Shown here piece by piece: positions 41 through 17,923 of a DNA stretch of 64,000 nucleotides; position 1 is the first letter of the stretch; the number at the start of each line of letters is the position of its first letter. The stretch covers positions 1,488,001 through 1,552,000 of the forward strand of contig NZ_CANDOB010000001.1 of NCBI RefSeq assembly GCF_947387515.1, read 5' to 3'. Position numbers and translations under genes: made by a program. The notes beneath the pieces were generated by a model. It saw nothing but the letters and a program-made list of their open reading frames with translations. It did no database searches and had not been told where the DNA came from. This stretch comes from Alkalihalobacillus sp. CinArs1 (GTDB taxonomy: Bacteria; Bacillota; Bacilli; Bacillales; Guptibacillaceae).

Positions 41-168
41 GCTTTTCTTGGGCTAGCTGCAGCGTCCAGACCCTCGTGGCGCTTCACCTTTTCAATTGAA
101 CACACAAATCGTGTTCCCTTGAAAAGCTTCCACCGCCTTCGGGTCTAAGCGGACGCTTCCGCTTTTCT
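41..168. repeat. Structured intergenic repeat, copy 1
   Basis: The element starts and ends with the word gcttttct. It can fold: AGACCC (68-73) pairs with GGGTCT (141-146), GTGG (76-79) with CCAC (130-133), CTTTTCAA (88-95) with TTGAAAAG (119-126), and GAACAC (98-103) with GTGTTC (111-116). Bases 22-40 look like the tail of a further copy. It lies just beyond the tdk terminator. Related copies are at about 1403-1510, 1531-1658 and 17793-17922. Confidence 0.8.
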
Positions 169-181
169 AACTTCTAACTAA

Positions 182-205
182 AAAAACCCGGTTCCCCGGG
201 TTTTT
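182..205 (-). terminator. Rho-independent terminator of tdk
   Basis: Perfect 10-bp stem (AAAAACCCGG with CCGGGTTTTT, loop of four) followed on the minus strand by a T run, 8 bases past the tdk stop. Confidence 0.85.
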
Positions 206-212
206 CTTCTAA

Positions 213-830
213 CTATCTTGTAACTTCTTCTTGTTGTAAATCTCTAGCCGTTGGTTTGCCTGGAACCTTGTGGCAGTGGCGGCACCGTGGCTCATATGAC
301 TCTGAAGCTCCAACTAGAATGATCGGGTCGTCGTAGTGAGCTGGCTTGCCGTCGATCAGGCGCTGTGTTCTGCTTGCTGGTGAGCCGCAGACTACACAAA
401 TGGCTTGAAGCTTTGTAACGGACTCAGCTACTGTGAGAAGCTCTGGAACCTGTCCAAATGCTTTACCACGGAAATCCTGGTCAAGACCTGCCACGATGAC
501 GCGCACGCCTTCGTCAGCAAGCTGCTGGGCAACTTCCACAATTCCATCATCAAAAAATTGCACTTCATCGATTGCGACCATATCTGTATCTTCAGCCACA
601 CGATCAAGTATCGCTGTTGAGTCGTTTACCGGCACAGCAATAACCGATGTGCCATTATGAGACACAACGGACTCTTCACTATATCTGTTATCAACTTTTG
701 GTTTGAAGACCTGAACTTTCTGTTTCGCATAAGTTGCTCTTCTTACACGGCGGATCAATTCTTCTGATTTTCCAGAAAACATGCTACCGCAAATGACCTC
801 AATCCAGCCGTTGTGTTTCATGACATGCAT
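213..830 (-). CDS. tdk: Thymidine kinase
   Basis: Salvage enzyme that phosphorylates thymidine to dTMP with ATP in the cytosol. The 205-residue protein has the P-loop GSMFSGKS at residues 15-22, the DEVQFF motif at 88-93 with the expected catalytic Glu89, and four zinc-binding cysteines (145, 148, 183, 186), as in the type II thymidine kinase family. An AAAGGAG site lies about 10 bases before the first ATG; in-frame ATGs at codon 4 are an alternative start. It lies downstream of rpmE, the same order as in Bacillus subtilis, but has a terminator between it and rpmE, so it probably has its own promoter in 841-920. Confidence 0.95.
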
Positions 831-925
831 GCAACCGCTTCTCCTTTCTCCCTATCCCGAAAAGACATCGTCTAATCTATATATTCCCCTTTTAAAGGTT
901 TAAAACTCCTTGAAGTGTTAAAAAA

Positions 926-950
926 ACAGGCAAGAAGGATACTTGCCTGT
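926..950 (-). terminator. Terminator of rpmE
   Basis: ACAGGCAAG pairs with CTTGCCTGT (9 bp, loop of seven) and is followed on the minus strand by seven T. It lies directly after the rpmE stop codon. Confidence 0.85.
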
Positions 951-958
951 TCTTATCA

Positions 959-1165
959 TTAACCGTTAAGGTTGTATTTTTTTCTAAACTTATCTACACG
1001 TCCACCAGCGTCAGCAAACTTCTGACGTCCTGTGTAATACGGGTGACACTCTGAGCAAACCTCAACGTTGACCCCGTCTTGTTTTGTAGATCCTGTTTCG
1101 AATTCGTTACCGCAAGCACACTTAACCATTACTTTCTCATAACCTGGGTGAATTGCTTGTTTCAT
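959..1165 (-). CDS. rpmE: 50S ribosomal protein L31, zinc type
   Basis: Large-subunit ribosomal protein. The 68-residue product carries the CxC and CxxC cysteine pairs (KCACGN and CSECHP) of the zinc-binding L31 form, which in B. subtilis serves as a zinc store and is swapped for the zinc-free paralogue under zinc limitation. The start is set at the second in-frame ATG: the AAGGAG site abuts the first ATG (1174) and is 9 bases from this one, and the protein then begins MKQAIHPGY like its relatives. Confidence 0.95.
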
Positions 1166-1285
1166 GAATTTCATCTCCTTCCGCCCTGATTCCTTAGGAA
1201 ACAGAGTTATCTAAAACCGACAAACGAAGCTGACGGTTTTCTGCACATACAGAAGTATTATAGCAGGGAGCATACCACAATGCAA
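1166..1285 (-). promoter_or_regulatory. rpmE promoter and leader
   Basis: The minus strand has TTGCAT (1280-1285), a 17-bp spacer and TATAAT (1257-1262) preceded by TGC, a strong sigma-A promoter with extended -10. The roughly 85-base leader can form a hairpin with arms AAAACCG and CGGTTTT (within 1213-1240). Firmicute rpmE leaders are known to carry an autoregulatory L31-binding structure; that this leader is one is inference from position and hairpin only. Confidence 0.6.
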
Positions 1286-1402
1286 TCGATCATAAGAAAG
1301 CCATTTTCAGTTGTCTTTCCGCTGGGGATCTAGCTAAACAGGCTATACCCTCGTGTTTCGTGTTCCTTCGAAAAGCTTCCACCGCTTGTCGAAGTCCAGC
1401 TA

Positions 1403-1510
1403 CACAAGCCAAATCCTTCGGCCGTTTCACCCCCTCGGGCGAGACAAAAAACGTCTCATCCTCGCGGGCTCCAACGACCTACGGATTTAAACGGGCTCGT
1501 TTCGCTTTTC
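1403..1510. repeat. Structured intergenic repeat, divergent copy
   Basis: Same layout as the other copies but with different arms: outer AAATCC (1411-1416) with GGATTT (1483-1488) and inner GAGAC (1441-1445) with GTCTC (1453-1457). It ends in the same word TCGCTTTTC. Bases about 1330-1400 look like a further decayed fragment (they hold gtgttccttcgaaaagcttcc, known from the other copies). Together with the next copy this fills most of the rpmE-rho gap. Confidence 0.6.
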
Positions 1511-1530
1511 AGGTCTTAACGGCCAGCTCC

Positions 1531-1658
1531 GCTTTTCTTGATCCAGCTGCGCTTGCCAGACCCTCGTGGCGCTTCACCTTTTCGATTGAACACACAAATC
1601 GTGTTCCTTCGAAAAGCTTCCACCGCCTTCGGGTCTTAACGGCCAGCTCCGCTTTTCT
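1531..1658. repeat. Structured intergenic repeat, copy overlapping rho 3' end
   Basis: Arms: AGACCC (1558-1563) with GGGTCT (1631-1636), GTGG (1566-1569) with CCAC (1620-1623), CTTTTCGA (1578-1585) with TCGAAAAG (1609-1616), GAACAC (1588-1593) with GTGTTC (1601-1606). A 26-base direct repeat (ggtcttaacggccagctccg and following bases) at 1512-1538 and 1632-1658 flanks it, so this is a tandem copy joined to the one before. The last codons and stop of rho lie in it. Confidence 0.8.
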
Positions 1659-2901
1659 CTTTCTCAAACAAGTTGAACATTTCTTCGTTTGTCTTTGTTT
1701 TTCTTAGACGTTTCAGGAAGTTATCGACAAATTCAAACGAGTCGTCCATGCTCTTTCTGATCGTCCAGAGCATTTCAAGCTGTTCTTTTGGAAGAAGAAG
1801 TTCTTCTTTTCTTGTTCCGGATCTGCGAATATCGATTGCCGGGAACATGCGGCGCTCAGCCAGTTTGCGATCGAGGTGGAGCTCCATGTTACCTGTTCCT
1901 TTGAACTCTTCATAGATGACGTCATCCATACGAGAGCCTGTATCCACAAGTGCAGTTGCAAGGATCGTTAAGCTTCCGCCTTCTTCGATGTTACGGGCAG
2001 CACCAAAGAATCGTTTTGGTCTATGGAATGCTGCTGGATCGATACCACCAGAAAGTGTTCTTCCACTTGGTGGAATCACAAGATTATAAGCACGAGCAAG
2101 ACGTGTAATACTATCGAGAAGGATGACAACGTCTTTTTTATGTTCAACAAGACGCATCGCACGTTCAAGGACGAGCTCGGCTACTTTAATATGGTTATCT
2201 GGCGTCTCATCGAACGTCGAGTGAACAACGTCTCCATCTACGGAACGTTCGATGTCCGTTACTTCCTCAGGTCGTTCGTCGATCAGAAGAACGATGAGCT
2301 CCGTGTCAGGGTGGTTCGTTGTAATACTATTTGCGATTTCTTTTAGAAGCATCGTTTTACCAGCCTTAGGAGGTGCAACGATTAAACCACGCTGACCGTA
2401 TCCTACAGGAGCGATCATATCGATGATACGAGTCGAAAGGTTATTGGACTTGTTTTCAAATTCCATGCGCTTCTCAGGGTAGAGAGGCGTTAGAGCCGGA
2501 AAATGAACGCGTTCTTTTGATGAATCTGGGTCATCCCCATTAACTGCTTCTACATGGAGAAGACCATAGTAACGTTCGTTTTCTTTCGGTGGACGCACTT
2601 TACCAGATACGCGATCACCGTTTCGAAGGTCGAATCGACGAATTTGAGATGCAGATATATAAATATCTTCGGCACTCGGTGAATAGTTGATCGGACGTAA
2701 GAAGCCAAATCCTTCAGATGAAATAATCTCAAGAATTCCTTCCATGAAAAGGAGACCAGACTGCTCTGCCTGTGCTTTTAGTATCGCAAATACAAGTTCC
2801 TTTTTGTTCAGCTTACTGTAGTAGGAGACTTTGTATTTCCTAGCCTGCTCATACAGTTCTTTTAAATTCATTTGTTCTAAATCAGATAAATTTACTGCCA
2901 T
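1636..2901 (-). CDS. rho: Transcription termination factor Rho
   Basis: Hexameric RNA helicase that ends transcription of untranslated RNA. The 421-residue protein has the Rho N-terminal helical domain ([12 protein letters not shown]), the cold-shock-like RNA-binding domain (GFGFLRP), and the ATPase core with Walker A PPKAGKT and the Q-loop region [15 protein letters not shown]. The order glpX-rho-rpmE-tdk matches B. subtilis. The final residues (EKSGAGR) are encoded by the edge of an intergenic repeat, so the native C-terminus may have been replaced. The Shine-Dalgarno site before the ATG at 2901 is weak (GTGGTG). Confidence 0.95.
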
Positions 2902-3310
2902 GTTGACACCACACTTTTAATTTATAATAATGCTAGTTTTTCCTAGAAAAAAGGATTAAAGGAGAAGAGAGTACTACGGATATGAATAGCTGTTATTGCT
3001 TTCTAACTAAAGTTACGTACGAAAAAAGAAAGAGTTTGTGAGATCCCATGAGAGGCTAGTATTCTTTTCCATGCAGGTATCTCTTATGTGAGAGTAGAGG
3101 AAGTGCACAACGAAGGTATTGCTAAACGATCGTTTCTCTTGTGCTCAATTAAACATAGTTTAAAATTTTATAGGTTAAACCTCATGATAGGGTTAAATCT
3201 TCTTAAAGTACAGCAAAATAATGTAGCACCTTATAGTTTTACCAGATTCTTTAAGAATATTCAACATGAAATGAGCGATGCTGCTATCACAGCACCACTC
3301 TTTCCAAAAA
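2902..3310. other. 409-base gap between glpX and rho
   Basis: No supported gene. It should hold the rho promoter and a long rho leader; B. subtilis rho is known to be autoregulated through its leader. Short inverted repeats are visible (for example ctcttatgtgagag near 3080-3093 and tgctgctatcacagca near 3279-3294), but I see no convincing promoter or terminator. Confidence 0.5.
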
Positions 3311-4279
3311 TTAAGGCTTTATCACTAAGTCGGGTTTCTTTTTCAAGCTATGTTTGCCATCGATGAAGCGAACGGTTCCAGATTTTGCTCGCATAACGAC
3401 AGATTGAGTCGTTCCAGCCGTTCCTTTGAAGCGAACGCCTTTCAATAGCTCACCGTCAGTCACGCCTGTTGCAGCAAAAATGGCGTCTTCTCCTCTAACG
3501 AGGTCTTCCATGCGCAATACGCGAGAAACGTCTACGATTCCCATCTCACGGCAGCGGCGCATCTCTTCTTCGTTCTGTGGAAGCAGTTTACCTTGGATCT
3601 CACCACCGAGACACTTGAGTGCAACTGCAGCTAAGACACCTTCAGGGGCTCCCCCTGAACCAAACAGGATGTCGACTCCAGTATCTTCAAAAGCCGTATT
3701 GATCGCAGCTGCTACATCTCCATCTGTGATGAGCTTGATTCTTGCACCAGCAGAACGTACCTCTTCTATAATCTGTTCGTGACGTTTGCGATCCAATATG
3801 ACCGCCACGCAGTCTTCGATGTCTTTATTTTTTGCTTTTGCTACTGCTTTTAGATTATCTAGAACAGAAGCATTAATATCGACTTTTCCAACAGCTTCTG
3901 GTCCTACCGCAATCTTATCCATGTACATGTCTGGTGCATGAAGTAAGTTTCCATGATCCGCAACAGCAAGGACAGCGAGAGCATTCCATGTACCGGCAGC
4001 TACAATGTTTGTTCCTTCGAGTGGATCGACAGCAACGTCCACACGTGGACCATAACCTGTACCTAGCTTTTCACCGATATAAAGCATCGGTGCTTCGTCC
4101 ATCTCTCCTTCTCCGATCACGACGGTTCCTTTCATCGGAACGGTATCAAACACATCGCGCATAGCAGACGTAGCAGCATCATCTGCCTCTTCTTTTTTCC
4201 CACGACCCATCCAACGAGCAGAAGCAAGTGCGGCAGCTTCTGTTACTCGAACGAGTTCCATCGACAAACTTCTTTCCAT
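3311..4279 (-). CDS. glpX: Class II fructose-1,6-bisphosphatase
   Basis: Gluconeogenic phosphatase converting fructose 1,6-bisphosphate to fructose 6-phosphate. The 322-residue protein has the family's metal and substrate motifs GEGEMDEAP (56-64) and DPLEGT (85-90). GGGGAGGA precedes the ATG. It sits between murA and rho as ywjI (glpX) does in B. subtilis, and with fba and the transaldolase gene nearby it forms a loose sugar-phosphate neighbourhood. Confidence 0.93.
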
Positions 4280-4330
4280 TATGCTCTCCTCCCCAAAGTA
4301 CCCAGCAGTAAAACGCTTTCATTTTTATTA

Positions 4331-4366
4331 AAAACAGAAAAGCGGCTCAAACCGCTTCTTCTGTTT
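4331..4366 (-). terminator. Terminator of murA
   Basis: Long stem: AAACAGAA and AAGCGG on one arm pair with CCGCTT and TTCTGTTT on the other, followed on the minus strand by a T-rich tail. It lies between the murA stop and glpX. Confidence 0.85.
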
Positions 4367-4367
4367 C

Positions 4368-5657
4368 TTACGTATTCTCTACTTCTTTTAGCTCTTCTTG
4401 ATCCAACTTCTCACGCCAAACGCGTGCGCCAAGGTCACTGAGCTTCTCCACAAGTCGTTCATAACCACGATCGATGTGTTCAAGCCCAGATACTTCCGTT
4501 ACGCCTTCAGCCATCAATCCAGCTACGACGAGGGCAGCTCCTGCGCGAAGGTCTGATGCACGAACCTTTGCACCTTGAAGTCTCGTTGCTCCGTTGATAA
4601 TGGCAGAACGACCTTCAACTTTAACATTCGCTCCCATTCTACGAAGCTCATCAATGTGCTTAAATCTCGCTCCGTAGATCGTATCGGTTACAACACTACT
4701 ACCCTCTGCGTTTGTGAGGAGTGAGGTGAACGGCTGTTGAAGATCAGTTGGAAAACCAGGATATACAAGCGTTTTGACATCGACGCTCTTCCACCCTTGA
4801 CGTGGTGAACTGATGTACACTTGATCTTCATTCGTTTCGACCGTTACGCCCATTTCACGAAGCTTCGCGATGAGTGACTCTAAGTGTTGCGAGATCACGT
4901 TGTCGATTACGACCTCGTCCCCCATTGCTGCTGCCATGATCATGTAGGTGCCCGCTTCGATACGGTCAGGAATTATAGAATGATAGCAACCGTTAAGTTC
5001 GTCGACTCCATCGATTCGAATAACGTCCGTTCCAGCACCCTTGATCTTTGCACCCATGCTAGAAAGCAATGTGGCAACGTCGATGATCTCGGGTTCTTTT
5101 GCAGCATTTTCAATCACTGTTCGTCCTTTTGCACGAACGGCAGCGAGCATGATATTGATCGTTGCGCCAACGCTAACTACGTCAAGGTAAATACGCGCGC
5201 CTTTCAATTCGTCGGCACGAAGGTAGATCGCACCTTGTTCATTCGTCACCTTCGCACCGAGGGCTTCAAAGCCTTTAATATGCTGATCGATTGGACGTGG
5301 CCCTAGGTTACATCCACCAGGCAGGCCTATTACTGCTTTTTTAAATCGTCCGAGCATCGCACCCATTAAATAATAAGAGGCACGTAGTTTCTTAACCTTT
5401 CCGTTAGGCAACGGCATTGCAATCATTTCTTGAGGGTTTACCGTAAGCGTATTGCCATCCAGCTCAGCTTGTCCCCCAATTTCTTCTAAAAGATCACGTA
5501 GGATTCCAACGTCTGATATGTTAGGCAGGTGGTCGATCGTGACAGTGGATTCGGCTAATATAGCCGCCGGGATGAGTGCTACCGCACTATTCTTGGCCCC
5601 GCTCACCTGAACGGTTCCACTTAAGCGATGGCCTCCGGCGATCATCAACTTTTCCAT
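4368..5657 (-). CDS. murA: UDP-N-acetylglucosamine 1-carboxyvinyltransferase
   Basis: First committed step of peptidoglycan precursor synthesis: enolpyruvyl transfer from phosphoenolpyruvate to UDP-GlcNAc. The 429-residue protein has the substrate-binding SGAKNS (Lys22, Asn23), the catalytic and fosfomycin-reactive cysteine (Cys116 in [11 protein letters not shown]) and the RPIDQH motif. Length and neighbourhood match the second B. subtilis paralogue, MurAB (MurZ). The open frame extends 22 codons further upstream, but AAGGGAGA precedes this ATG at the right distance and the protein then starts like its relatives. Confidence 0.94.
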
Positions 5658-5771
5658 AATGGTCTCCCTTCTTCGTCCGCATCTTATTCCTGGCAATGGA
5701 TTTGTCGAAATGTGAAACTCCATAAGAATAGTATGGGCAAAAACAGGAAGTTCATGCCAATTCCATCTCGA

Positions 5772-6425
5772 TTAATCCAAGTCTTTTTGTACTTCGTTCC
5801 AATCAGAAAGAAACTTATCGATACCTTTGTCTGTAAGAGGGTGCTCTAGCATTTGTAGAACAACTTTCAGTGGCATCGTACCAATGTCTGCTCCTCTTAA
5901 TGCTGCTTCAGATACGTGAAGCGGGTGGCGAATCGATGCGGCAATAATTTCAGTCTCAATTCCATGTACAGCAAATAGATCAGAAATCTCAGAGATTAAA
6001 TCTAACCCGTTGTGTCCGATGTCGTCTAGTCTTCCAAGAAACGGTGATACATAAGAAGCACCGGCACGAGCTGCAAGTAGCGCTTGATTTGAAGAAAAGA
6101 CTAGCGTTACGTTTGTTTTTATTCCTAACTCAGAAAATGCCTTAACTGCTTTAAGACCTTCCTGGTTCATCGGTACTTTTACAGTGATGTTCGGAGCGAT
6201 GTTTGCAAGCTGTTTGCCTTCTTCGATCATATCCTCAGCTTTCATGGATACGACTTCAGCGCTGACTGAGCCTTTCACCAAGTCTGTTATTTCTCTCAAA
6301 CGATCATGAAAGTCTACGTTTTCCTTAACAACAAGTGATGGATTAGTCGTTACTCCAGCTACAACTCCCATATCATAAGCTTGTTTGATATCATCTAAAT
6401 TAGCAGAATCTATAAAAATTTTCAT
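5772..6425 (-). CDS. tal: Transaldolase / fructose-6-phosphate aldolase family protein
   Basis: Small class I aldolase of the non-oxidative pentose phosphate pathway or a fructose-6-phosphate aldolase. The 217-residue protein has the TTNPS motif (26-30) and the Schiff-base lysine in KVPM (Lys83). It resembles B. subtilis YwjH (TalA), which has the same neighbours, murA and fba. Transaldolase and aldolase activities cannot be told apart by eye. A possible CcpA site lies 25 bases upstream of the start. Confidence 0.88.
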
Positions 6426-6449
6426 TGTGTACGTCCTCCTCTGTTGTTT

Positions 6450-6463
6450 AGAAAGCGTTTACT
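6450..6463. promoter_or_regulatory. Possible CcpA (cre) site upstream of tal
   Basis: AGAAAGCGTTTACT matches the cre consensus TGWAANCGNTNWCA at all but the two end positions. It lies just downstream of the presumed tal promoter. Confidence 0.35.
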
Positions 6464-6561
6464 AAAAAATTTTAACATAAATTTCTATCTGATTTACGGG
6501 TTTGCCTAAAATTAGTTGAAAAATAGTCGTCAAGTAGGTGGAAGGGGAAGTTTATGGAAAT

Positions 6562-6591
6562 TATAAACCGCCCGGATTCGAGCGGTTTATA
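6562..6591 (-). terminator. Hairpin after fba
   Basis: TATAAACCGC pairs with GCGGTTTATA (10 bp). It lies 24 bases past the fba stop. The T run is poor, so termination may be inefficient. Confidence 0.55.
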
Positions 6592-6614
6592 CTATCTCCA
6601 TCTTTTATGAAGAT

Positions 6615-7478
6615 TTATGCTTTTTGAGAAGAACCGAATTCACGCATTTTACCGATTACTGTTTCTTTAATCGCATCACGTGCAGGTCCCATGTATTTAC
6701 GTGGATCGTATAGTTCTGGCTTTTCTTCTAGTACAGAGCGAACTGCTTTTGCAGAAGAAAGCTGACTTTCAGTGTTAACGTTAATTTTCGCATGTCCAAA
6801 TTTGATCGCTTTTTTCACGTCAGCAGTTGGAATACCAGTACCACCGTGAAGAACTAGAGGAACACCAGTCATCTTGCTGATTGTTTCCATGCGGTCAAAT
6901 CCAAGGTTTGGTTCACCTTTGTATGGACCGTGTACAGAACCAAGTGCTGGAGCGAAGCAATCCACACCAGTTTCGTTGATTAGACGCTCACACTCTTCAG
7001 GGATCGCGTATGCAGCTTCTGCATCACTAACGATAACGTCGTCTTCTTGTCCGCCGATACGGCCAAGCTCTGCTTCAACTGAAACGCCTACTGCGTGTGC
7101 AGCTTCAACAACTTTTGAAGTTAGAGCGATGTTCTCATCTAGCGGGTAGTGAGAGCCGTCGATCATAACAGAAGTGAAGCCAGCGTTGATCGCTTGCATA
7201 CACTTAGCGAAGCTTGATCCATGGTCAAGGTGAATCGCAACAGGAACTGTTACGTTGTATTCTTCCATCAATGCGTTCACTAGAGTCGTAACGGTTTTGA
7301 AACCACCCATGTAACGTGCAGCACCTTCGGATACTCCAAGGATTACTGGAGATTTTTCTTCCTCAGCAGCCTGAAGGATCGCTTGAGTGAACTCAAGGTT
7401 GTTCAGGTTAAATTGGCCAACAGCGTAGCCTTCTGCTTTAGCTTTTTCTAGCATTTCTTTCATAGAAACTAAAGGCAT
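6615..7478 (-). CDS. fba: Class II fructose-bisphosphate aldolase
   Basis: Zinc-dependent aldolase of glycolysis and gluconeogenesis that cleaves fructose 1,6-bisphosphate to two triose phosphates. The 287-residue protein has HLDHG (83-87) with the catalytic aspartate and a zinc histidine, and later the GSVHGPYKG and LHGGTG motifs of the phosphate- and metal-binding loops. AAGGAGGA precedes the ATG. It lies between spo0F and the transaldolase gene, as fbaA does in B. subtilis. Confidence 0.95.
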
Positions 7479-7686
7479 GGTACTTCCTCCTTGATATTAA
7501 ATAAGATTGCTCGGTCGGAACCTAAAGCATCGTTGTTAAAGAGATACTTGTTGTTAGAGCTCACAAAATGCCTTCTCGAAATAATCGGTCTTATTCAAGA
7601 TGGCACAAACACATAAATTTTATGTATGTACCGTGAAATTTCAATCGTCACTTGTGCAAACACTCCAAAAACACGGTTCTATTATA
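7479..7686 (-). promoter_or_regulatory. fba promoter and long leader
   Basis: The minus strand has TGC directly before TATAAT (7681-7686), an extended -10 element; the -35 is weak. That leaves a leader of about 190 bases before fba, with a near-palindrome acataaattttatgt around 7612-7626. No riboswitch class was recognised. Confidence 0.45.
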
Positions 7687-7761
7687 GCATATCAAATCTA
7701 CAAAAGAAGGGGAAAAAGCTTGATTTAATAGGATTTGTTTATGTAAGCGCTACCTCTTCTA

Positions 7762-8130
7762 CTAAGAGATCGCAGACAATTCTTTTTTTACAGCTTCTGT
7801 AATTTCATCGATATCAAAAGGTTTCGGGAAGTGCGTGATCGCTCCGAGATCCATCGCCTCATGAATCATGTCGAGCTCACCGTAAGCAGTCATGATGATG
7901 ACGAGTGCTCTTGCTTCCATCTTCTTAATCCGTTTTAAAATTTCCAATCCGTCCATGCCTGGAATTTTCATATCCAGAATCACAAGATCAGGATCTTCAT
8001 TCTTCACGATATCCAATGCTTGAACTCCATTGGCAGCTTGATAAGTTTGGTAGCCTTCTTTTTGAAAAATTTCATTAAGGAGGATCCGTATTCCGTATTG
8101 GTCATCAACTATTAAGATTTTCTTTTTCAT
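7762..8130 (-). CDS. spo0F: Sporulation phosphorelay response regulator Spo0F
   Basis: Single-domain receiver that takes phosphate from sporulation kinases and passes it to Spo0B, then Spo0A. The 122-residue protein has the acidic pair Asp9-Asp10, the phosphorylated Asp53 (ILDMKIPG), Thr81 and Lys103 (FPKP), with no output domain. A sigma-H type promoter lies upstream. The gene is flanked by fba and the DUF2529 gene as in B. subtilis. Confidence 0.95.
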
Positions 8131-8167
8131 ATCATTGCCTCCCGATTACAGATTCTATTTAGTATGA

Positions 8168-8192
8168 ATTCGCTATTTACAAGCATTATCCT
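8168..8192 (-). promoter_or_regulatory. Sigma-H type promoter of spo0F
   Basis: The minus strand reads AGGATAAT (8185-8192), a gap of 13 bases, then GAAT (8168-8171). This is the spacing of known sigma-H promoters such as spoVG (AGGATTT, 14 bases, GAAT). spo0F is a known sigma-H target in B. subtilis. Confidence 0.6.
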
Positions 8193-8270
8193 TCTTAGCA
8201 CGGCTCGCTTCCATCTTGCTATCACGTTATAATATGTATCGAACCATTTCTAAAGAAAGGCAGTGACCTT

Positions 8271-8801
8271 ATGCTAAAGATATTTACAACGCAATTGATG
8301 GGTAAGTTCAAACATATACAAGATAACCACGAGATGGTAATTGAAGATATATCACGCCTGTTAGCTCAAACGATTACCGGTGGCGGTAAGGTTTATTTTA
8401 AAGGGCAAAACGAACTTCAGGGCGTTGCTCTCGAAGCGATCGATGGAGCGGACGCTCTCCCATCATGCGCTATTCTTGAACCGAACACAGAGCTGACTGA
8501 TCGCGATACCGTCTTGATGTTTGGCAAGTTTAATGACGACTCATCATTTGCACAGCTCGCTACAGAGTATAAAGAAAGTGGAGCATCCGTCATAGGTGTT
8601 GCCGCAAGTCGTAAAAATGAAGCTCAAGCTCTCGAAGACACGGTTCACTTTTATATTAACACAGGGCTTACAACAGGACTCGTTCCGGACGAAGACGGTG
8701 AACGGATCGGTCACCCTTCCCTTCTTGTCGCGCTGTTTGTATACCATGCGATTTATTTAACAACAAAGGAAATTCTTGATGAGCACGGAATCGAGATATA
8801 G
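8271..8801 (+). CDS. DUF2529 family protein (YwjG-like)
   Basis: Conserved Bacillus protein of unknown function. The 176-residue product looks like a single alpha/beta domain, with a glycine-rich loop (TITGGGKVYFKG, about 36-47) and alternating strands and helices like SIS-type sugar-phosphate domains; that resemblance is my inference. It is divergent from spo0F and convergent with pyrG, exactly the place of ywjG in B. subtilis. AAAGGCAG precedes the ATG. Confidence 0.85.
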   Translation: MLKIFTTQLMGKFKHIQDNHEMVIEDISRLLAQTITGGGKVYFKGQNELQGVALEAIDGADALPSCAILEPNTELTDRDTVLMFGKFNDDSSFAQLATEYKESGASVIGVAASRKNEAQALEDTVHFYINTGLTTGLVPDEDGERIGHPSLLVALFVYHAIYLTTKEILDEHGIEI

Positions 8802-8802
8802 A

Positions 8803-8832
8803 GAAAACAGGGTGTCAGCTGACACCCTGTTT
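8803..8832. terminator. Bidirectional terminator, DUF2529 gene / pyrG
   Basis: A perfect 30-base palindrome (15-base arms starting AAAACAGGGTGTCAG) with A and T tails on the two sides. It can serve both convergent genes. Confidence 0.9.
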
Positions 8833-8836
8833 TTTA

Positions 8837-10468
<1,632 letters not shown>

Positions 10469-10589
10469 TTAGTATTCTACCCTTATAAAAAGGGAAAGGA
10501 TTCATTCGATTGCCATTGTTTCTTAAAAGACGATTGACCGACGTGTTCCTATTCGAATGTATTGTCAGGTGCTTTTTAATAAAATAAAA

Positions 10590-10636
10590 AAAACAAAAGT
10601 GACACCTGTCCCATAGATGGGGGGCACTTTTGTTTT
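10590..10636 (-). terminator. Terminator of rpoE
   Basis: A 12-bp outer stem (AAAACAAAAGTG with CACTTTTGTTTT) encloses a smaller CCCATAGATGGG hairpin, with T and A tails. It lies about 90 bases past the rpoE stop. Confidence 0.8.
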
Positions 10637-10723
10637 ATATTAATCATTATATTATTCGTTTATTGGTGAAGCCCAAAAATGATTCTACCGACTTCGAGCC
10701 TGAAAGTCAAGAACTGACACAAA

Positions 10724-11227
10724 TTATTTGGTGTCTTCCTCGTCATCTTCAAAGTCTTCGTCATCATCATCGTCGTCATCGTCAAGATCTTCATCATCAA
10801 ACTCTTCTGCATCATCGTCATCGAAGTCTGCATCGAAGTCATCGTCAAGATCGTCAACTTCTAGATCATCCAATTCGTCCTCAAGGTCATCATCGAAAAC
10901 GTCTTCGTCGTCTTCAGACTTCTTGCGTTTCTTTGGCTTGATCGTCGTAGCGAGCTCTTCCTGGGATTGCTCAACAGGGTACCAGCTTTTCAGACCCCAC
11001 TGATTATCGCCAAGTGTTACGAAGCGGCCATCTGTATTTAGGTTCGTATAAACTTCAGCAAGACGTCCCTGAACCTCTTCAGATGAAAGTCCCTTCATAT
11101 CTCCAATCTGGCTCATTAGCGTGTAGAAAGAAACTGGTTTTCTCTCATCTTGCAAAATATAAAACATAATATCGATCATTGATGTCTCTTGAATGTCATC
11201 AGCAGACAACTGATTTAAGGTACTCAT
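10724..11227 (-). CDS. rpoE: DNA-directed RNA polymerase subunit delta
   Basis: Accessory RNA polymerase subunit of Gram-positive bacteria that speeds enzyme recycling and sharpens promoter selection. The 167-residue protein has a folded N-terminal HARE-type domain (residues 1-90) and then an almost uninterrupted Asp/Glu tail, typical of RpoE. The ATG at 11227 follows GAAAGGGAG; the frame also opens at a TTG seven codons earlier. Upstream of pyrG as in B. subtilis. Confidence 0.94.
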   Translation of the reverse strand: MSTLNQLSADDIQETSMIDIMFYILQDERKPVSFYTLMSQIGDMKGLSSEEVQGRLAEVYTNLNTDGRFVTLGDNQWGLKSWYPVEQSQEELATTIKPKKRKKSEDDEDVFDDDLEDELDDLEVDDLDDDFDADFDDDDAEEFDDEDLDDDDDDDDEDFEDDEEDTK

Positions 11228-11444
11228 AGTATCGGCACTCCCTTTCAATTCTCTCCTCTGAATACTTTACCCGAATGATATGAAAAACAAGCTATGTTAG
11301 GTATCCAAATAGATAGTTTTTCTTATTTTATAAAAATCATACCATTCATTATAAACAAATTTCCTCAATCTATGCTACGATTTTTAAACAAATCTAGTTC
11401 AATCGAAGGATTTGTCCAAAAAAGGCGTCTATTCGCAAACGTAA

Positions 11445-11471
11445 TAGGAGGAAGGACTATCCTTCCTCCTA
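11445..11471 (-). terminator. Hairpin after icmF
   Basis: TAGGAGGAAGG pairs with CCTTCCTCCTA (11 bp, loop of five), 40 bases past the icmF stop. There is no T run, so it may be an mRNA 3' end stabiliser or a factor-dependent terminator. Confidence 0.45.
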
Positions 11472-11511
11472 CAATAATATGAACCGATTCGTTTGACAAG
11501 CTATTACCCGT

Positions 11512-14500
11512 CTACATATTTCGACGGTATTTCCCACCGACATCATAGAGCGCAGTCGTGATCTGACCGAGGCTCGCCACTTTTACCGTTTCCATCAATT
11601 CTTCAAAGATGTTTCCTTTCGTAAGAGCAGCTTGCTTCAAACGGCGAAGAGCATCTTCCGTTTCACCAGCATTTCTTTCCTGGAATTCCTTAAGGTTTGA
11701 AATCTGCTGTTCTTTCTCTTCTTTACTTGCTCTTGCAAGCTCCATGTTCCACTCTTCCTCAGCAGGTGGATTTGGATTCTTGTATGTGTTCACCCCTACG
11801 ATCGGAAGGTCACCTGTGTGCTTCAGCATCTCATAATACATCGATTCTTCTTGAATCTTACCGCGCTGATACTGAGTTTCCATCGCACCGAGAACGCCTC
11901 CGCGTGCATTGATGCGTTCGAATTCTGTCAGAACCGCTTCCTCAACGAGATCCGTTAGTTCTTCAACAATAAAAGATCCTTGAAGTGGATTTTCGTTCTT
12001 ACTGAGTCCGTGTTCTTTTGTAATGATCATCTGAATCGCCATCGCTCGACGCACGGATTCTTCCGTAGGTGTCGTAACTGCTTCATCATACGCGTTTGTA
12101 TGAAGTGAGTTACAGTTATCCTGAATGGCCATCAGCGCCTGAAGCGTTGTACGAATGTCGTTAAAGTCCATTTCCTGTGCATGAAGAGAGCGTCCTGACG
12201 TTTGAACATGGTACTTAAGCTTTTGACTTCTAGCGTTCGCTCCATATTTCTCCCTCATCACAGTCGACCAGATTCGTCTTGCTACACGACCGATCACCGT
12301 ATATTCAGGATCCAATCCGTTACTGAAGAAGAATGAAAGGTTTGGTGCAAACTTGTTGATGTCCATTCCTCTACTCAAGTAATACTCAACATACGTAAAC
12401 CCGTTCGCAAGTGTAAATGCGAGCTGCGAAATCGGATTCGCGCCAGCTTCAGCGATATGATATCCGGAAATAGAGACCGAATAGTAGTTTCGAACTTCAT
12501 TATTAATGAAGTATTCCTGAATGTCACCCATCATACGAAGTGCAAATTCAGTAGAGAAGATACACGTATTCTGCCCCTGATCTTCTTTTAAAATATCAGC
12601 TTGAACCGTTCCACGAACGGTGCTGAGCGTCATCGCCTTAATCTCGGCGAGCTCTTTTTCTGTCGCCTTACGCCCTTCTTTTTCTTCGAATCGCTGAACC
12701 TGCTGCTCAATCGCAGTGTTCATGAACATTGCGAGGATGATAGGCGCAGGCCCGTTGATCGTCATCGAAACGGACGTTGATGGCGCACAAAGGTCAAAAC
12801 CGGCGTACAGCTTCTTCATATCATCGAGTGTACAAATGCTTACACCGCTCTCTCCAACTTTCCCGTAAATATCAGGGCGGTAGTCAGGGTCTTCCCCGTA
12901 AAGCGTCACGGAATCAAATGCCGTACTCAAACGCTTTGCGTCATCATCTTTCGATAGATAATGGAAGCGGCGATTCGTTCGTTCAGGAGTACCTTCACCA
13001 GCAAACTGGCGCTTTGGATCTTCTCCCTTTCTCTTAAACGGAAACACGCCAGCAGTATAAGGGAACGAACCAGGTACGTTCTCTTTTAATACCCAGCGGA
13101 CGATTTCTCCCCAATCTTCATACTTTGGAAGAGAAACCTTCGGGATATCAATTCCTGACAAGCTCTTCGTCGTAAGCTCCGTTACGATTTCTTTGTCACG
13201 TATGACAGAGACAAACTCCTTACCGCTATACTTTTCTTTGACTTCTGGCCAGCTCTCAATAATTTTCTTCGTTTCAGGATGCATGTCGTCCATGTTGTCA
13301 TCCTTCATCTTGGAAAGCATCTTGATCGTTTCTTCGTTTTCTTCTTTTCCTTGAAGCATCTCGATCGTACCCTGAAGCTGGAAGGCTTTACGTGCGAGCT
13401 GTACCTGCTTCTCAACATACTCATGATAACGGCGTACAGAGCCTGAAATGTCTTGTAAGTACTGCTGGCGCTGTGGAGGGATGATTAGGTTGAGCTTCTC
13501 TACAATTTCACTCGTTTCGATGTTTGTAGCCCAGTCATTTCCACACTTTCGCTGAATCGTATCGATCATTGCTTTGAATAGGGTGTTCGTTCCAGGGTCG
13601 TTGAACTGACTTGCGATCGTACCGTAAACAGGCATCTTATCGAGGTCCTGTTCAAACAACATATGGCTACGCTGGTATTGCTTTTTTACATCACGAAGCG
13701 CATCCTCTGAGCCTTTTCGCTCATATTTATTAATTACGATAAGGTCAGCAAAATCGATCATGTCGATTTTTTCTAGCTGCGAAGGGGCACCGAATTCGCT
13801 TGTCATCACGTACATCGATACGTCCGCAATCTCAGCGATTTCTGCATCGCCTTGGCCGATTCCACTCGTTTCAATAATGATGAGGTCGTAGCCAGCCGCT
13901 TTGACGACAGCCATCGCCTCTCGAATGGAAAGAGATAGTTCTGTCTTAGACTTCCTCGTAGCAAGGCTCCGCATGAAGACGCGATCGTTATGGATCGCAT
14001 TCATACGAATTCTGTCCCCAAGAAGTGCACCACCCGTTTTTTGTTTCGTAGGATCGATTGAAAGGATCGCAACAGTTTTATCTTCGTATTCATTAATAAA
14101 GCGACGAACCAATTCGTCCGTTAATGAACTCTTACCAGCACCACCGGTACCGGTGATTCCAATGACAGGCGCTGATGTTTCCATTCCTTTAAGCTCTGTG
14201 AACACTTTCTCAGCCGTTGCAGCTACTTCATCAGATCGCTCAGCACCAAAACTCTCTGCAAGAGTGATCAAGCTTGATACAGCCTGAGGATCACGCTTGC
14301 TCACTCGCTCAAGCTGATTATCGATTTGCTTGAAGGTAGGGAAGTCACATTCCTTCATCATAAGATCGATCATGCCTTGAAGACCGAGGTCACTCCCATC
14401 GTCCGGAGAGAAAATTCTCGAAATCCCATATTCATGAAGTTCTTTGATTTCCTTTGGAATGATAACACCGCCGCCTCCACCATAAATGCGGATATGAGAC

Positions 14501-14775
14501 GCACCATTCTTTTTCAATAGATCGTACATGTATTTAAAATATTCCATGTGACCGCCCTGGTAAGAAGAGATCGCGATTCCTTGAACATCCTCTTGGATGG
14601 CAGCGTTTACAACTTCTTCTACGGAACGGTTGTGACCTAGGTGGATTACTTCTGCACCACTCGCTTGTAGAATGCGGCGCATGATGTTGATCGACGCATC
14701 ATGACCATCGAACAAGCTAGAAGCCGTTACAAAACGGACATGGTTAACAGGCTTTTTCGTTTCAGTTACACTCAC
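11512..14775 (-). CDS. icmF: Fused isobutyryl-CoA mutase
   Basis: Adenosylcobalamin-dependent mutase interconverting isobutyryl-CoA and n-butyryl-CoA (some homologues also use pivalyl- or isovaleryl-CoA). The 1087-residue protein has the fused order of the family: B12-binding domain (about 1-145, with the cobalt-ligand region DGHDAS, His25), a G-protein chaperone domain (P-loop GTGGAGKSS, 209-217) and the mutase barrel (from about 560). It ends an operon with a TetR regulator, meaB and acyl-CoA dehydrogenase, which fits breakdown of branched-chain amino or fatty acids. Confidence 0.93.
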
Positions 14776-14788
14776 ACTGTTTCCTCCT

Positions 14789-15427
14789 TCACGTTCTATT
14801 CGCAGTATTTATAGGGTTAAGCGCTTGAATGATGAACGCTTCTTGCATCTTCGTAAATTCTTCGATCGTGTAATGAGAGCGGAGCGCCCAACGCCTGAAC
14901 GCCCACATCTGCCCTTGCACAAGAATGTTGTGGGATGCTCCGTATACTTCTTCTTCAGTTAACTGAAGCATGCCTTCATCTACACAATCTTGAATCAACT
15001 TCTCAAAGATTTCTGCCATTCCGATCTCTTTCTTCAACACGTAAGGCAGCGTTTCATTCGGTAATGACTTCGCTTCTTGATACATGACGAGCACTTCATC
15101 TTGAAAGTCATCCATCACTTGATAAAACGCATGCAGCGCCTGCTTCAAACGATCGATTCCCTTCACACCCGGCTTGATCTGTTCTTCTAACCGCTCTCTA
15201 ACTTCATCGTAGATACTGTCACATACGAGATAGAGAACGTCTTCTTTTTTTCGAATGTATTCATAAAGCGTTCCGATACTGAAGCCCGCTACCCGAGCGA
15301 TCTCCCGCGTCGTCGTTCGATGAAACCCTTTTTCTTTAAAAAGGCTCACAGCCGCTTTTATCATTTGTTCCCGTCGTTTCTGGATCAGCTTTTCATCCTT
15401 CACCATCGAAGGAACGTTCTTTCTCAC
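14789..15427 (-). CDS. TetR/AcrR family regulator, FadR-like
   Basis: 212-residue repressor. The N-terminal helix-turn-helix is clear (about residues 18-65, including [21 protein letters not shown]), and the rest is the helical ligand domain. It is encoded between meaB and icmF, within the operon. Bacillus FadR is a TetR protein that releases palindromic operators on binding long-chain acyl-CoA. Two operator-like palindromes lie upstream of thl and fadF. Whether this protein or another FadR binds them cannot be told from sequence. Confidence 0.85.
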
Positions 15428-15448
15428 CGCATACCCAGCCCCTTCCCG

Positions 15449-16408
15449 TCAGCTTTTGTCTACTTTTTCTCCGTAATAGTCATCCAGTAGTCTGACTGCA
15501 GCTGAATAAGGGTCGATTGACCCCTCCTTAACTTCTTCTACCCAGCTTCTGTTCTCTTTCTCTTGCTCGATTAGCCGCTTCATCATCTCAGCATGAACGA
15601 CTTCGATCACTTCACGTTCTAGCGATGTTTTACGGCGTCGCTCTCGCTCACCAGACTTTTTCAAATAAGCGAGATGCTCCTTCAACCGCTCCCATACCTC
15701 ATCGATGCCTTGGTTTTGAACCGAGACCGTCTTTACGATCGGTGGGCGCCAATCTGCATCGTGCTTTACAATATCCAGCATGCTTTCAAGCTCTGCTAGT
15801 AATTTCGGTACACCCGACAAATCCGCTTTGTTCACGATGAACATGTCTGCGATCTCCATGATGCCGGCTTTGAACACCTGCACCACGTCACCACTTCCAG
15901 GATTCAATAACACAGCAATGGAATCAGCGATCTTCATGATGTCTAGTTCTGACTGTCCGACTCCTACGGTTTCTATCAAGATGACATCGAATCCGTACGC
16001 ATCCATTAGCCGTACCGTTTCTTTTGACGTACGTGATAACCCCCCAAGACTACCTCGTGTACCCATACTTCTAATAAAGACTCCTGGATCAGTGAAATGC
16101 TCTGCCATTCGAACGCGATCTCCCAGAAGCGCACCCCCACTGAATGGACTCGTTGGATCGACTGCTACAACGCCAACAGTGAGATCAAGCTTCCTGAGGT
16201 AGGTGATGAGTCGATTGACGAGTGAACTCTTTCCTGCCCCCGGAGATCCTGTTAATCCGATGTAATGTGCGTGACCTGTCATCGAATGGATATCCTTTAA
16301 CAGCTCTAGTTTTCCTTCTGCATCGTTTTCAACTAAGCTGATCGCTTTCGCAAGTGCACGTTCATCGCGTTTTGAAATTCGTTGTGCAAGAGAATCCATG
16401 CTACTCAT
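15449..16408 (-). CDS. meaB: Methylmalonyl-CoA mutase-associated GTPase MeaB
   Basis: G3E-family P-loop GTPase that protects B12-dependent mutases and gates cofactor loading. The 319-residue protein has the P-loop GSPGAGKSS (54-62), the switch region with [19 protein letters not shown] and the NKAD guanine-specificity motif. It is 40 bases from acyl-CoA dehydrogenase on one side and tetR on the other. It coexists with IcmF, which already has its own G domain, so it may serve a second mutase elsewhere in the genome. Confidence 0.92.
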   Translation of the reverse strand: MSSMDSLAQRISKRDERALAKAISLVENDAEGKLELLKDIHSMTGHAHYIGLTGSPGAGKSSLVNRLITYLRKLDLTVGVVAVDPTSPFSGGALLGDRVRMAEHFTDPGVFIRSMGTRGSLGGLSRTSKETVRLMDAYGFDVILIETVGVGQSELDIMKIADSIAVLLNPGSGDVVQVFKAGIMEIADMFIVNKADLSGVPKLLAELESMLDIVKHDADWRPPIVKTVSVQNQGIDEVWERLKEHLAYLKKSGERERRRKTSLEREVIEVVHAEMMKRLIEQEKENRSWVEEVKEGSIDPYSAAVRLLDDYYGEKVDKS

Positions 16409-16413
16409 CCTTC

Positions 16414-17556
16414 TTAATCAGCCAATAGCATCCTTGAAATAACTAGACGCTGAATTTCGTTTGTTCCTTCGTAGATTTGAGTGATCTTTGCATCTCTCAT
16501 AAAACGTTCAACCGGGTAATCTTTCGTGTAACCATAGCCTCCGAACACTTGAACCGCTTCTGTTGTTACTTCCATCGCGATATCGCCTGCATACAACTTG
16601 GACATCGCGGACTCTTTTCCGTACGGAAGTCCTTGACTCTCTTTCCAAGCTGCCTGGTAGGTTAATAGTCTTGCTGCTTCGATCTTTGTCGCCATATCAG
16701 CAAGCTTGAAGCCGATCCCTTGGTTTTCACCGATTGGTTTCCCAAACTGCTTCCGTTCTTTTGCATATGCCGTAGCAGCATCTAGTGCTCCTTGAGCAAT
16801 TCCAACTGCTTGAGCCGCAATTCCGTTTCGACCACCATCTAGCGTCTTCATTGCGATTTTAAACCCTTGCCCTTCTTCGCCAAGACGGTTCGCAACCGGA
16901 ACACGGCAGTCTTCAAAGATGATTTCAGTCGTTGGAGATGAACGGATTCCTAGTTTCTTTTCCTTTTTCCCTACAGAGAACCCTGGCGTATCGCTCTCTA
17001 CGATAAACGCTGTGATCCCTTTATGACGCTTTTCTTTGTCCGTTTGTGCAAAGACGATATAGATTTCTGCTTCGCCGCCATTTGTGATAAAGATCTTTGA
17101 GCCATTGAGGATGTAATGATCTCCGTCTAGTTTAGCTGTCGTTTTCATGCCGCCAGCATCTGAACCAGAGCCCGGCTCCGTTAAGCCATACGCCCCCATC
17201 ATCTTTCCTTCTGCCATCGGACGAAGGAACTTCTGCTTCTGTTCTTCCGTTCCAAATGCATTTACTGGCCACCCAGCGAGAGACGTATGTGCTGAAAGTG
17301 TAACCCCTGTCGAAGCACACACTCTCGAAAGCTCTTCAACAGCAATCACATAGCTCAAATAGTCAGACCCAATGCCGCCATATTCTTCTGACCACGGGAT
17401 ACCTGTTAAGCCAAGCTCAGCCATATGCGTAAAATGTTCACGGTCGAAGCGTTCTTCTTCATCACGCTCACCCGCTGTTGGTTCTACTTCTTTCTTTGCA
17501 AAATCACGGACCATTTTCCGTAGCATTTCGTGTTCTTCTGAAAGTTGAAAGTTCAT
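16414..17556 (-). CDS. Acyl-CoA dehydrogenase
   Basis: FAD enzyme of beta-oxidation that introduces the alpha,beta double bond into acyl-CoA. The 380-residue protein has family signatures in the middle domain ([14 protein letters not shown]) and near the C-terminus ([19 protein letters not shown]), with the catalytic glutamate expected in YEGTNEIQR. It shares about the same length and order of motifs with the gene at 17924-19060 and is likely a paralogue with another chain-length or branched substrate. AAGGAGAG precedes the ATG; meaB follows after 5 bases. Confidence 0.92.
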
Positions 17557-17660
17557 ATGAGGTTCTCTCCTTTTGATTTAGGTGTCGGTGGAGCGTTTTG
17601 TCATGGTGATCGTCTTGGTTGCGGCTCCTGTATTAGCGTTTTGACGGTGCGATGGACAGG

Positions 17661-17760
17661 TTATTGTCCAAAACTGAGATTTATTAGCTAAAATGAGAAT
17701 TTATTGTCCAAAAACGAGATTTATTAGCTAATATTTGATTTTATTAGCTAATTGGGATGG
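17661..17760. repeat. Intergenic array with a 20-bp period
   Basis: Five units start at exactly 17661, 17681, 17701, 17721 and 17741. Units begin ttattgtcca (first and third) or ttattagcta (second, fourth, fifth) and most have a GA-containing second half. The array lies in the 367-base gap between two acyl-CoA dehydrogenase genes, next to a structured repeat. Function unknown. Confidence 0.85.
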
Positions 17761-17792
17761 TTCTAGGGTTGAGAGGGGGATGTGGGCTCCCC

Positions 17793-17922
17793 TCCGCTTT
17801 TCTTGTCCAGCTGCAGCGCCCAGCCCCTCGAGTCGCTTCACCTTTCAAATTGAACACAAAGAGCGTGTTCATTTTGAAAGGTTCCAGCGCTTGTCGGGGC
17901 TTAACGGGCGCTTCCGCTTTTC
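17793..17922. repeat. Structured intergenic repeat, copy 4
   Basis: Arms: AGCCCC (17822-17827) with GGGGCT (17896-17901), CCTTTCAAA (17841-17849) with TTTGAAAGG (17873-17881), GAACAC (17852-17857) with GTGTTC (17865-17870). Both ends carry tccgcttttc. It begins one base past the stop of the upstream acyl-CoA dehydrogenase gene, so its RNA form would be that gene's 3' end. Confidence 0.8.
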
Positions 17923-17923
17923 G

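Follow-up and report, generated by a model that had tools for sequence, protein, structure and literature searches.

The window analysed here, the whole stretch of 64,000 nucleotides (nt) at G000:C1:1488001-1552000, where G000 is the genome of Alkalihalobacillus sp. CinArs1, contains four full copies of a hairpin unit of about 120 nt, all on the minus strand, at the 3' ends of the genes for thymidine kinase (tdk), Rho and an acyl-CoA dehydrogenase. These units belong to a repeat of which there is about an even chance that it constitutes a family of non-coding, non-autonomous mobile hairpin modules, recognised by their fold and moved by a putative trans-acting activity. Other G numbers denote compared genomes and L numbers compared loci. 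All four units were found with the covariance model R1, with scores that are partly by construction because all four were among the 48 rows used to build it; the next two matches in the window are noise at 13 bits, and a blastn search, which does not depend on R1, gave 32 matches to the unit in G000. The sequence-only reading had counted four copies, which agrees with this result, and had placed the second at about 1403-1510, which is corrected here to 1389-1511. The units, their fragments and the genes beside them are as follows.

46-168, minus strand: full unit with type A arms (P3 AGACCC/GGGTCT); R1 111.5 bits, fold z -4.6
1389-1511, minus strand: full unit with type C arms (AAATCC/GGATTT); R1 99.4 bits, fold z -3.8
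1536-1658, minus strand: full unit, type A; R1 111.0 bits
17800-17923, minus strand: full unit, type A (AGCCCC/GGGGCT); R1 139.2 bits
1-48, minus strand: part of the second unit in the tdk array, type B (GAAACGG); G000:C1:1487927-1488048
1325-1385, minus strand: degenerate remnant of another unit at the right end of the rho-rpmE array; 93% match over 28 nt, and repeats D5 and D11
17786-17799, minus strand: trailing piece of the next unit, read from the sequence as the remainder of GAAAAGCGGAGGGGAGC after the full copy
213-830, minus strand: thymidine kinase gene (tdk), with the array on its 3' side
1636-2901, minus strand: rho gene, an open reading frame (ORF) identified as Rho by NCBIfam; the array starts at its 3' end
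17924-19060, minus strand: acyl-CoA dehydrogenase family gene, with the unit directly after its stop codon

The unit at 46-168 sits downstream of the thymidine kinase gene and of that gene's terminator-like hairpin, and the fifth unit, which crosses the window start, extends from -73 to 48 in window coordinates. For the unit at 1536-1658, the left end GAAAAGCGG is part of the rho reading frame, whose stop at 1636-1638 falls within the unit, and the same GAAAAGCGG starts 1 nt past the stop codon of the acyl-CoA dehydrogenase gene in the unit at 17800-17923. Elsewhere near these arrays, an L31 ribosomal protein leader (RF03156) lies upstream of rpmE at 1175-1206 and is the only Rfam match in the window. 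A short AT-rich repeat (TTATTGTCCAAAA / TTATTAGCTAA) with a period of about 20-40 nt occupies 17661-17750; it comes after several array sites, is also present in the flanks of L001, L018 and L346-L355, and differs in copy number among congeners.

Each unit consists of a 5-nt joint, mostly GAAAA and at some sites GTAAA or CTAAA, followed by a body of about 115 nt that folds as a single long interrupted hairpin. On the element strand the 5' part reads GAAAAGC, GGA, P2, GUUUA, P3, CGA.., P4 and UGGA, followed by the distal stem and loop, and the 3' part reads GAA, P4', .., GAG, P3', CUG, P2', GCA, GCU and GGACA. What is kept across units is the fold together with the loop bases CGA, UGGA, GAA, GAG and GCUGGACA, while the arms change pairwise. 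The paired arm changes first described for the window copies (AGACCC/GGGTCT, AAATCC/GGATTT and AGCCCC/GGGGCT) are confirmed and fall in helix P3, with the other described arms forming the distal stem, on the element (minus) strand. Every full window copy folds better on the element strand than 200/200 shuffles, with z from -3.8 to -5.5. Alignment A1 comprises 48 rows, namely 46 of 60 extracted units plus two window units, with 14 distant or near-identical units left out; its consensus is GAAAAGC...GCTGGACA, and its 23 invariant columns are mostly loops, joints or closing pairs, the arms being variable. In the named structure of 38 pairs, 93.6% of 1816 cells in A1 are paired and double changes occur in 30 of the 38 pairs. 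The covariation of 0.554 compares with 0.199 in shuffled alignments (0/500 shuffles as high) and 0.056-0.112 for slid structures. Further units gave 0.532 in A3 (110 matches) and 0.709 in A4 (the 150 best of 170 matches from named-genome loci), values that lean towards the model because both alignments were fitted to it. The collection of copies genome-wide by covariance model, proposed as a check of the first reading, yielded covarying pairs beyond both the shuffled and the slid controls, and the idea that recent inversion of short arms explains all the changes fails on the many double changes of single pairs and on 74 further pair types. That a folded single strand is under constraint is well supported.

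Wobble pairs indicate which strand folds, as they appear as G-U on the element strand if that strand is the folded one and as A-C if its complement is. The ratios of G-U to A-C on the element strand are 52:8 in A1, 128:32 in A3 and 215:33 in A4. Among representatives at 80% identity they are 37:18 in A3 (22/110 rows) and 83:15 in A4 (63/150 rows), and the rows of these representatives favour G-U over A-C by 15 to 3 and 47 to 4, respectively. The element strand is thus favoured as the folded one, clearly in A4 and weakly in A3, and the excess of G-U counts against a symmetric DNA cruciform as well as against a fold of the complement. As the unit fold is obtained with RNA and with DNA parameters alike, the folded strand could be RNA or single-stranded DNA, which these predictions cannot tell apart. 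Selection on a folded RNA or DNA hairpin, as it had been suggested at the outset, is accordingly upheld as a folded-strand constraint by the covariation and the G-U bias; the symmetric DNA cruciform is disfavoured, and a host RNA function is no more than a possibility.

The strand assignment also bears on whether the units act as intrinsic transcription terminators or insulators, which is very unlikely. The complementary strand has a GC-rich stem with CTTTTC behind it, and in the L324 array five terminator-like sites lie inside units on that strand, among seven in the stretch where shuffling predicts 1.3. However, positions 1-1800 of the window hold two terminator-like sites where 2.0 are expected, neither of them in a unit, the consensus of the sense strand has no U tract, and the wobble bias favours the strand opposite to the one with the CTTTTC. 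Sense copies moreover lie inside atp, rRNA and tRNA gene clusters that are expected to be co-transcribed. Terminator function is not supported for the sense strand and is weakly supported for the complement.

The repeat is abundant and widespread in Bacillaceae and their relatives. By blastn, the hairpin unit is present in 38 of 61 relatives, including all 14 congeners, and R1 copies number 46 in G000 (two of them weaker, at 65 and 38 bits), 104 in G010, 70 in G007 and 65 in G003. In a class-wide survey with strict filters and 11 candidates scored per genome, R1 copies turned up in 44 of 299 sampled genomes, spread over 24 of the 118 genera. When named genomes were scanned with a pattern, at least 117 stretches were obtained, of which 80 were used, from Bacillus, Rossellomorea, Mesobacillus, Neobacillus, Peribacillus, Metabacillus, Jeotgalibacillus, Halobacillus, Psychrobacillus, Alkalicoccus and others; the top R1 scores among the named loci came from Alkalihalobacillus macyae and Pseudalkalibacillus hwajinpoensis.

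Units are arranged head to tail in co-oriented arrays, and these show a distinct relation to gene ends. Among 56 arrays in fetched stretches of the congeners G010, G007 and G009, evaluated with simple ORF calls, the upstream gene has the same sense in 34 and the opposite sense in 22, so that the position 3' of minus-strand genes, first noticed for all copies, is true of the window and not a general rule. Of the same arrays, 20 have own-sense genes on both sides, 14 follow an own-sense gene in a convergent pair, 18 are antisense to the genes on either side, and in 4 the flanking genes diverge. For arrays with the end of a sense gene of 100 codons or more no further than 400 nt from their left end, that left end falls at -11 to +3 nt relative to the stop codon in 24/45 cases in other genera, with none at 4-52 nt, in 9/18 in G010 and in 7/13 in G007, the last being largely the sites of G010; the four stop distances of 264-265 nt in G010 are spurious ORFs in rRNA. 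Genes of opposite sense that face the right end of an array stop at least 10 nt away from it in all cases (43/43 in other genera, 14/14 in G010 and 15/15 in G007). An open frame of 60 codons or more has its end at -12 to +4 in 33/87 arrays of other genera, 11/30 of G010 and 11/26 of G007, compared with 8/145, 5/145 and 3/132 in controls; a threshold of 30 codons gives a weaker contrast, with 63/145 against controls of 38/145, 24/145 and 13/132. Non-coding genes are involved as well. In L317 the 23S rRNA ends at 9482 and a unit at 9487-9609 lies 4 nt past it, ahead of the 5S rRNA that starts at 9661; this flank is common to seven fetched stretches of G010 and G007, of which only L317 is annotated. 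In L205 an array lies between a tRNA-Met gene (ending at 7501) and a tRNA-Glu gene (from 7221), 2 nt after tRNA-Met.

Such positions would suit a structured RNA of 3' untranslated regions that serves the host, a hairpin that protects or processes the ends of mRNA, 23S rRNA and tRNA and whose fold is kept by selection in place. The start of sense arrays at stop codons, seen in the excess of 60-codon frames over controls, the array type behind 23S rRNA, the array behind tRNA-Met and the persistence of sites across species with compensatory differences all fit a function of this kind. It is nevertheless unlikely, as the upstream gene has the opposite sense in the 22 arrays counted above, units turn over rapidly, and the occupancy of individual sites varies between congeners to the point that the tdk arrays run in opposite senses by species and are absent from 8 of 14, while the atpG-atpD site is empty in 7 of 14.

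Other candidate rules of placement were considered and rejected. Targeting by replication strand is not apparent, the element being on the leading strand by GC skew in 20/56 arrays. Array left ends coincide with -35 boxes in 8/40 cases against 4.7 expected by shuffling, despite striking cases at a SAM-riboswitch promoter. As a separate observation, in G007 and A. macyae the distance between a SAM riboswitch and the start of an array is about 49 nt, and at this site in G010, A. macyae and P. hwajinpoensis a TTGACA word is found 4 nt away from the end of the array (loci L343 9603-9712, L180 2148-2258, L311 and L170). Another GC-rich intergenic repeat (ACTCCTGCGGGA...GAGGCTCACCGCC) adjoins arrays in several species, lying beyond the tdk array in L063, L064 and L065 and in the flanks of L208 and L175.

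Comparison of the same sites among the 14 congeners separates occupied from empty states. At the rho site an array is present in 2/14 congeners, and at 12/12 sites without an array the coding sequence reads GAAAAAAGCGG at precisely the position that GAAAAGCGG of the array takes in G000. The acyl-CoA dehydrogenase site is readable in 9/14, with units in G000, G003, G007 and G010, a deletion remnant in G009 and no unit in G001, G004, G008 and G012. The empty site of G001 reads TAGAGAAAAGCCGAG, with GAGAAAAGCC after the stop, and the G010 unit has direct copies of GAAAAG on its two sides, followed by sequence resembling that of G001. The atpG-atpD site is occupied in 7/14 congeners and the trpS site in 2/14. 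Behind zwf a readable unit is found in G010, G007, G009, G011 and G004, remnants in G006, G005, G001 and G008, and an empty site in G013, G002, G012, G003 and G000, with GAGTAAAAC after the gene at the empty sites of G013 and G002. On the 3' side of tdk an array of the same sense is present in G000 and G003 and one of opposite sense in G002, G012, G013 and G008, and several of the empty sites have GATAAGAAAAGC beyond tdk. The presence and absence of arrays at tdk, atpG-atpD, zwf and trpS, together with the joint-like words at empty sites, count in favour of mobile modules. The arrays make related species differ in the 3' ends of housekeeping genes (rho, atpG, zwf, trpS).

Units within the arrays are largely replaced. 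The nearest relative of an arrayed unit lies at another locus for 36/49 units in G010 and 33/47 in G007, the G007 comparison being based on 57 of its 70 units. At 12 sites common to G010 and G007, with left flanks 94-99% alike, 10/25 G010 units are matched at 90% or more within the shared array, and 14/25 match better elsewhere in G007; adding three less certain site pairs (flanks 0.85, 0.45 and 0.46) gives 12/32 retained and 20/32 better elsewhere. Array sites are more shared between species than units, and the arrays change faster than their flanks and keep little but the fold. The exchange occurs in whole units. In 65 adjacent pairs with different arms, the P2 3' arm pairs with its own 5' arm at 0.916, with that of the next unit at 0.609 and with random arms at 0.615, in alignments that were fitted to the fold and favour own pairing; since the P2 arms pair within their own unit, the joints lie outside P2. 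A crossover inside this basal helix, suspected from one chimeric-looking unit, was rejected, with P2 broken in only 1/65 units. The linker between the GCUGGA end and the next joint measures 3-7 nt at 91 internal joints. For units with joint variants, the nearest body at another locus has the same variant in 0/23 cases, and GTAAAGC is seen again at further joints of its own sites (zwf, L315/L345 and the 12-kb L325 array), as is CTAAAGC at those of the gntK site (L314/L344/L285). Whole units change in register, and the joint tends to belong to the site.

Ordinary homologous recombination with tandem slippage, in which gene conversion at conserved joints spreads units in the absence of a dedicated enzyme, is a real possibility for this turnover, if still a doubtful one. 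Runs of neighbours that are 97-100% alike in L187, L324 and L336 indicate tandem amplification as well, the conserved unit ends provide homology, and the arrays at one site (site C) are concerted. Against this, the likeness between neighbours in mosaic arrays is often as low as 59-80%, with about 20-25 nt of shared sequence at the joints, exchanges keep to unit borders, and units at sites with unrelated flanks need more than conversion. New sites are not easily explained by homologous exchange alone.

In the favoured reading, that of mobile modules, a trans-acting recombinase, transposase or reverse transcriptase would recognise the folded element strand as RNA or single-stranded DNA. Units would be joined at a short A-rich target that is re-created or duplicated in the process, and each array would grow at its one docking site. 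Given this exchange of units from site to site, preservation of the fold may reflect that only units able to fold are moved and copied on. Several results weigh against this account. No moving enzyme was found in a partner search that covered Y1 transposases, and no match was obtained in plasmids with one unit as query or in phages with another single unit as query. Unit exchange could be ordinary recombination between repeats, and the words at empty sites may instead have been left behind by units since lost. The first unit behind rho in G003 lies 18 nt beyond the native word, and a joint-like word is absent or only loose at the acyl-CoA dehydrogenase site of G004, G008 and G012, at zwf in G000 and G003 and at several atpG sites. 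A variant joint is repeated by the next unit in only 5/11 adjacent pairs (0.23 expected), so the rule that the joint goes with the site is not absolute. A right-hand joint copy occurs in 28/54 single units of other genera (control 5/422 windows), where it often marks the beginning of a following unit that has decayed, and it is missing from the 23S-5S copies. Finally, when the three most wobble-rich pairs are removed, the G-U excess vanishes in A3 (18:17) and stays in A4 (36:11).

One candidate for a moving enzyme is an HUH (Y1) transposase acting on the hairpin, as in the relatives of REP/RAYT or IS200/IS605. The single-strand fold and the directional A-rich target at one end fit such an enzyme, and Y1 genes occur in 14/14 congeners. 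Y1_Tnp proteins, in frames of about 190-300 aa, are encoded in all 14 genus genomes (G000:C1:1278553-1278885 and similar) and lie far from arrays in G000; by their length we take these genes to be RAYT-like. A GTAG or GGAG tetranucleotide at the hairpin foot is the hallmark of REP/RAYT and IS200/IS605 elements, but neither is found in the unit consensus. In G000 the two Y1 genes of contig C1 have no R1 match less than 100 kb away, and 8/27 carriers (G026, G027, G143, G110, G150, G184, G246 and G251) have no Y1_Tnp match; in G110, G150, G184, G246 and G251 all 11 scored candidates matched R1. A Y1 transposase as a requirement was rejected on these 8/27 carriers, and movement by such an enzyme is very unlikely.

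Searches for known families were largely negative. Against the 4227 families of Rfam, none of the subset of units searched reached the gathering score; nine and eleven further loci gave tRNA, SAM, L21 leaders and Bacillaceae-1 beside units and none for the units themselves. The L317 piece at E up to 1 gave rRNA and sub-threshold matches outside the unit, and L155 at E up to 10 gave sub-threshold microRNA and Ms_IGR-7 matches of 16-21 bits over units, which were taken as chance. In a literature search by title and abstract opening, covering few subscription papers, the hairpin family was not recognisable.

Among described repeats, miniature inverted-repeat transposable elements (MITEs) of Bacillus such as bcr1 are close in kind, as the present units have no coding capacity, occur in many copies, are intergenic and measure about 120 nt. 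A target-site duplication, another trait of MITEs, has mixed evidence here: direct GAAAAG copies flank the acyl-CoA dehydrogenase unit of G010 and joints go with the site, yet a right joint is found in only 28/54 single units and in no rRNA copy. Like the hairpin units, bcr1 of the B. cereus group is short, non-coding and intergenic, contains a conserved hairpin and shows signs of mobility (PMC2267715, PMC3733652). In contrast to bcr1 as described there, the units span many Bacillaceae genera, combine a constant fold with varying arms, form mosaic tandem arrays at gene ends and have no conserved terminal inverted repeat in their consensus, the insertion-sequence partners having been searched for Y1 only. 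The B. halodurans families Bhal-1 and Bhal-2, of 74 and 76 nt (PMC2267715), are possibly related to the units. The Bacillaceae-1 RNA (RF01690) is likewise a structured motif of Bacillaceae; it differs in being 67 nt long with two small hairpins and another consensus, and the searched units gave no match to it. Binding of CsrA has been suggested for Bacillaceae-1 (PMC4333381). Two RF01690 copies lie inside an array of Metabacillus lacus (L155 1802-1868 and 2234-2300), where each takes the place of the left part of a unit shortly behind its GAAAA joint. Binding of CsrA to the hairpin units themselves was considered but not favoured, as their conserved GGA contexts are without the A two bases before.

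Further likenesses are to systems in which repeats move or assemble as modules. REP/BIME elements with their RAYT proteins and IS200/IS605 derivatives are palindromic, extragenic, directional and often clustered, as are the units, which differ in their length of 120 nt, in a consensus without the tetranucleotide foot and in carriers without a Y1 match. Pneumococcal BOX elements are modular intergenic repeats with variable numbers of internal modules; they differ from the units in organism, in sequence and in having distinct end modules. In integrons, the attC site is a single strand recognised by its fold, and modules are added in register at a docking site. The likeness of the units to attC is one of working; their consensus is without a GTTRRRY-type core, and no cassette genes lie between units. 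It is conceivable, though rather improbable, that the units are gene-less hairpin cassettes, defined by their fold rather than their sequence, copied by an enzyme as RNA or single-stranded DNA and inserted in register at docking sites at gene 3' ends, including those of 23S rRNA and tRNA. By analogy, and with the same reserve, such cassettes would in effect be a bacterial counterpart of short interspersed nuclear elements or of an integron without cassette genes.

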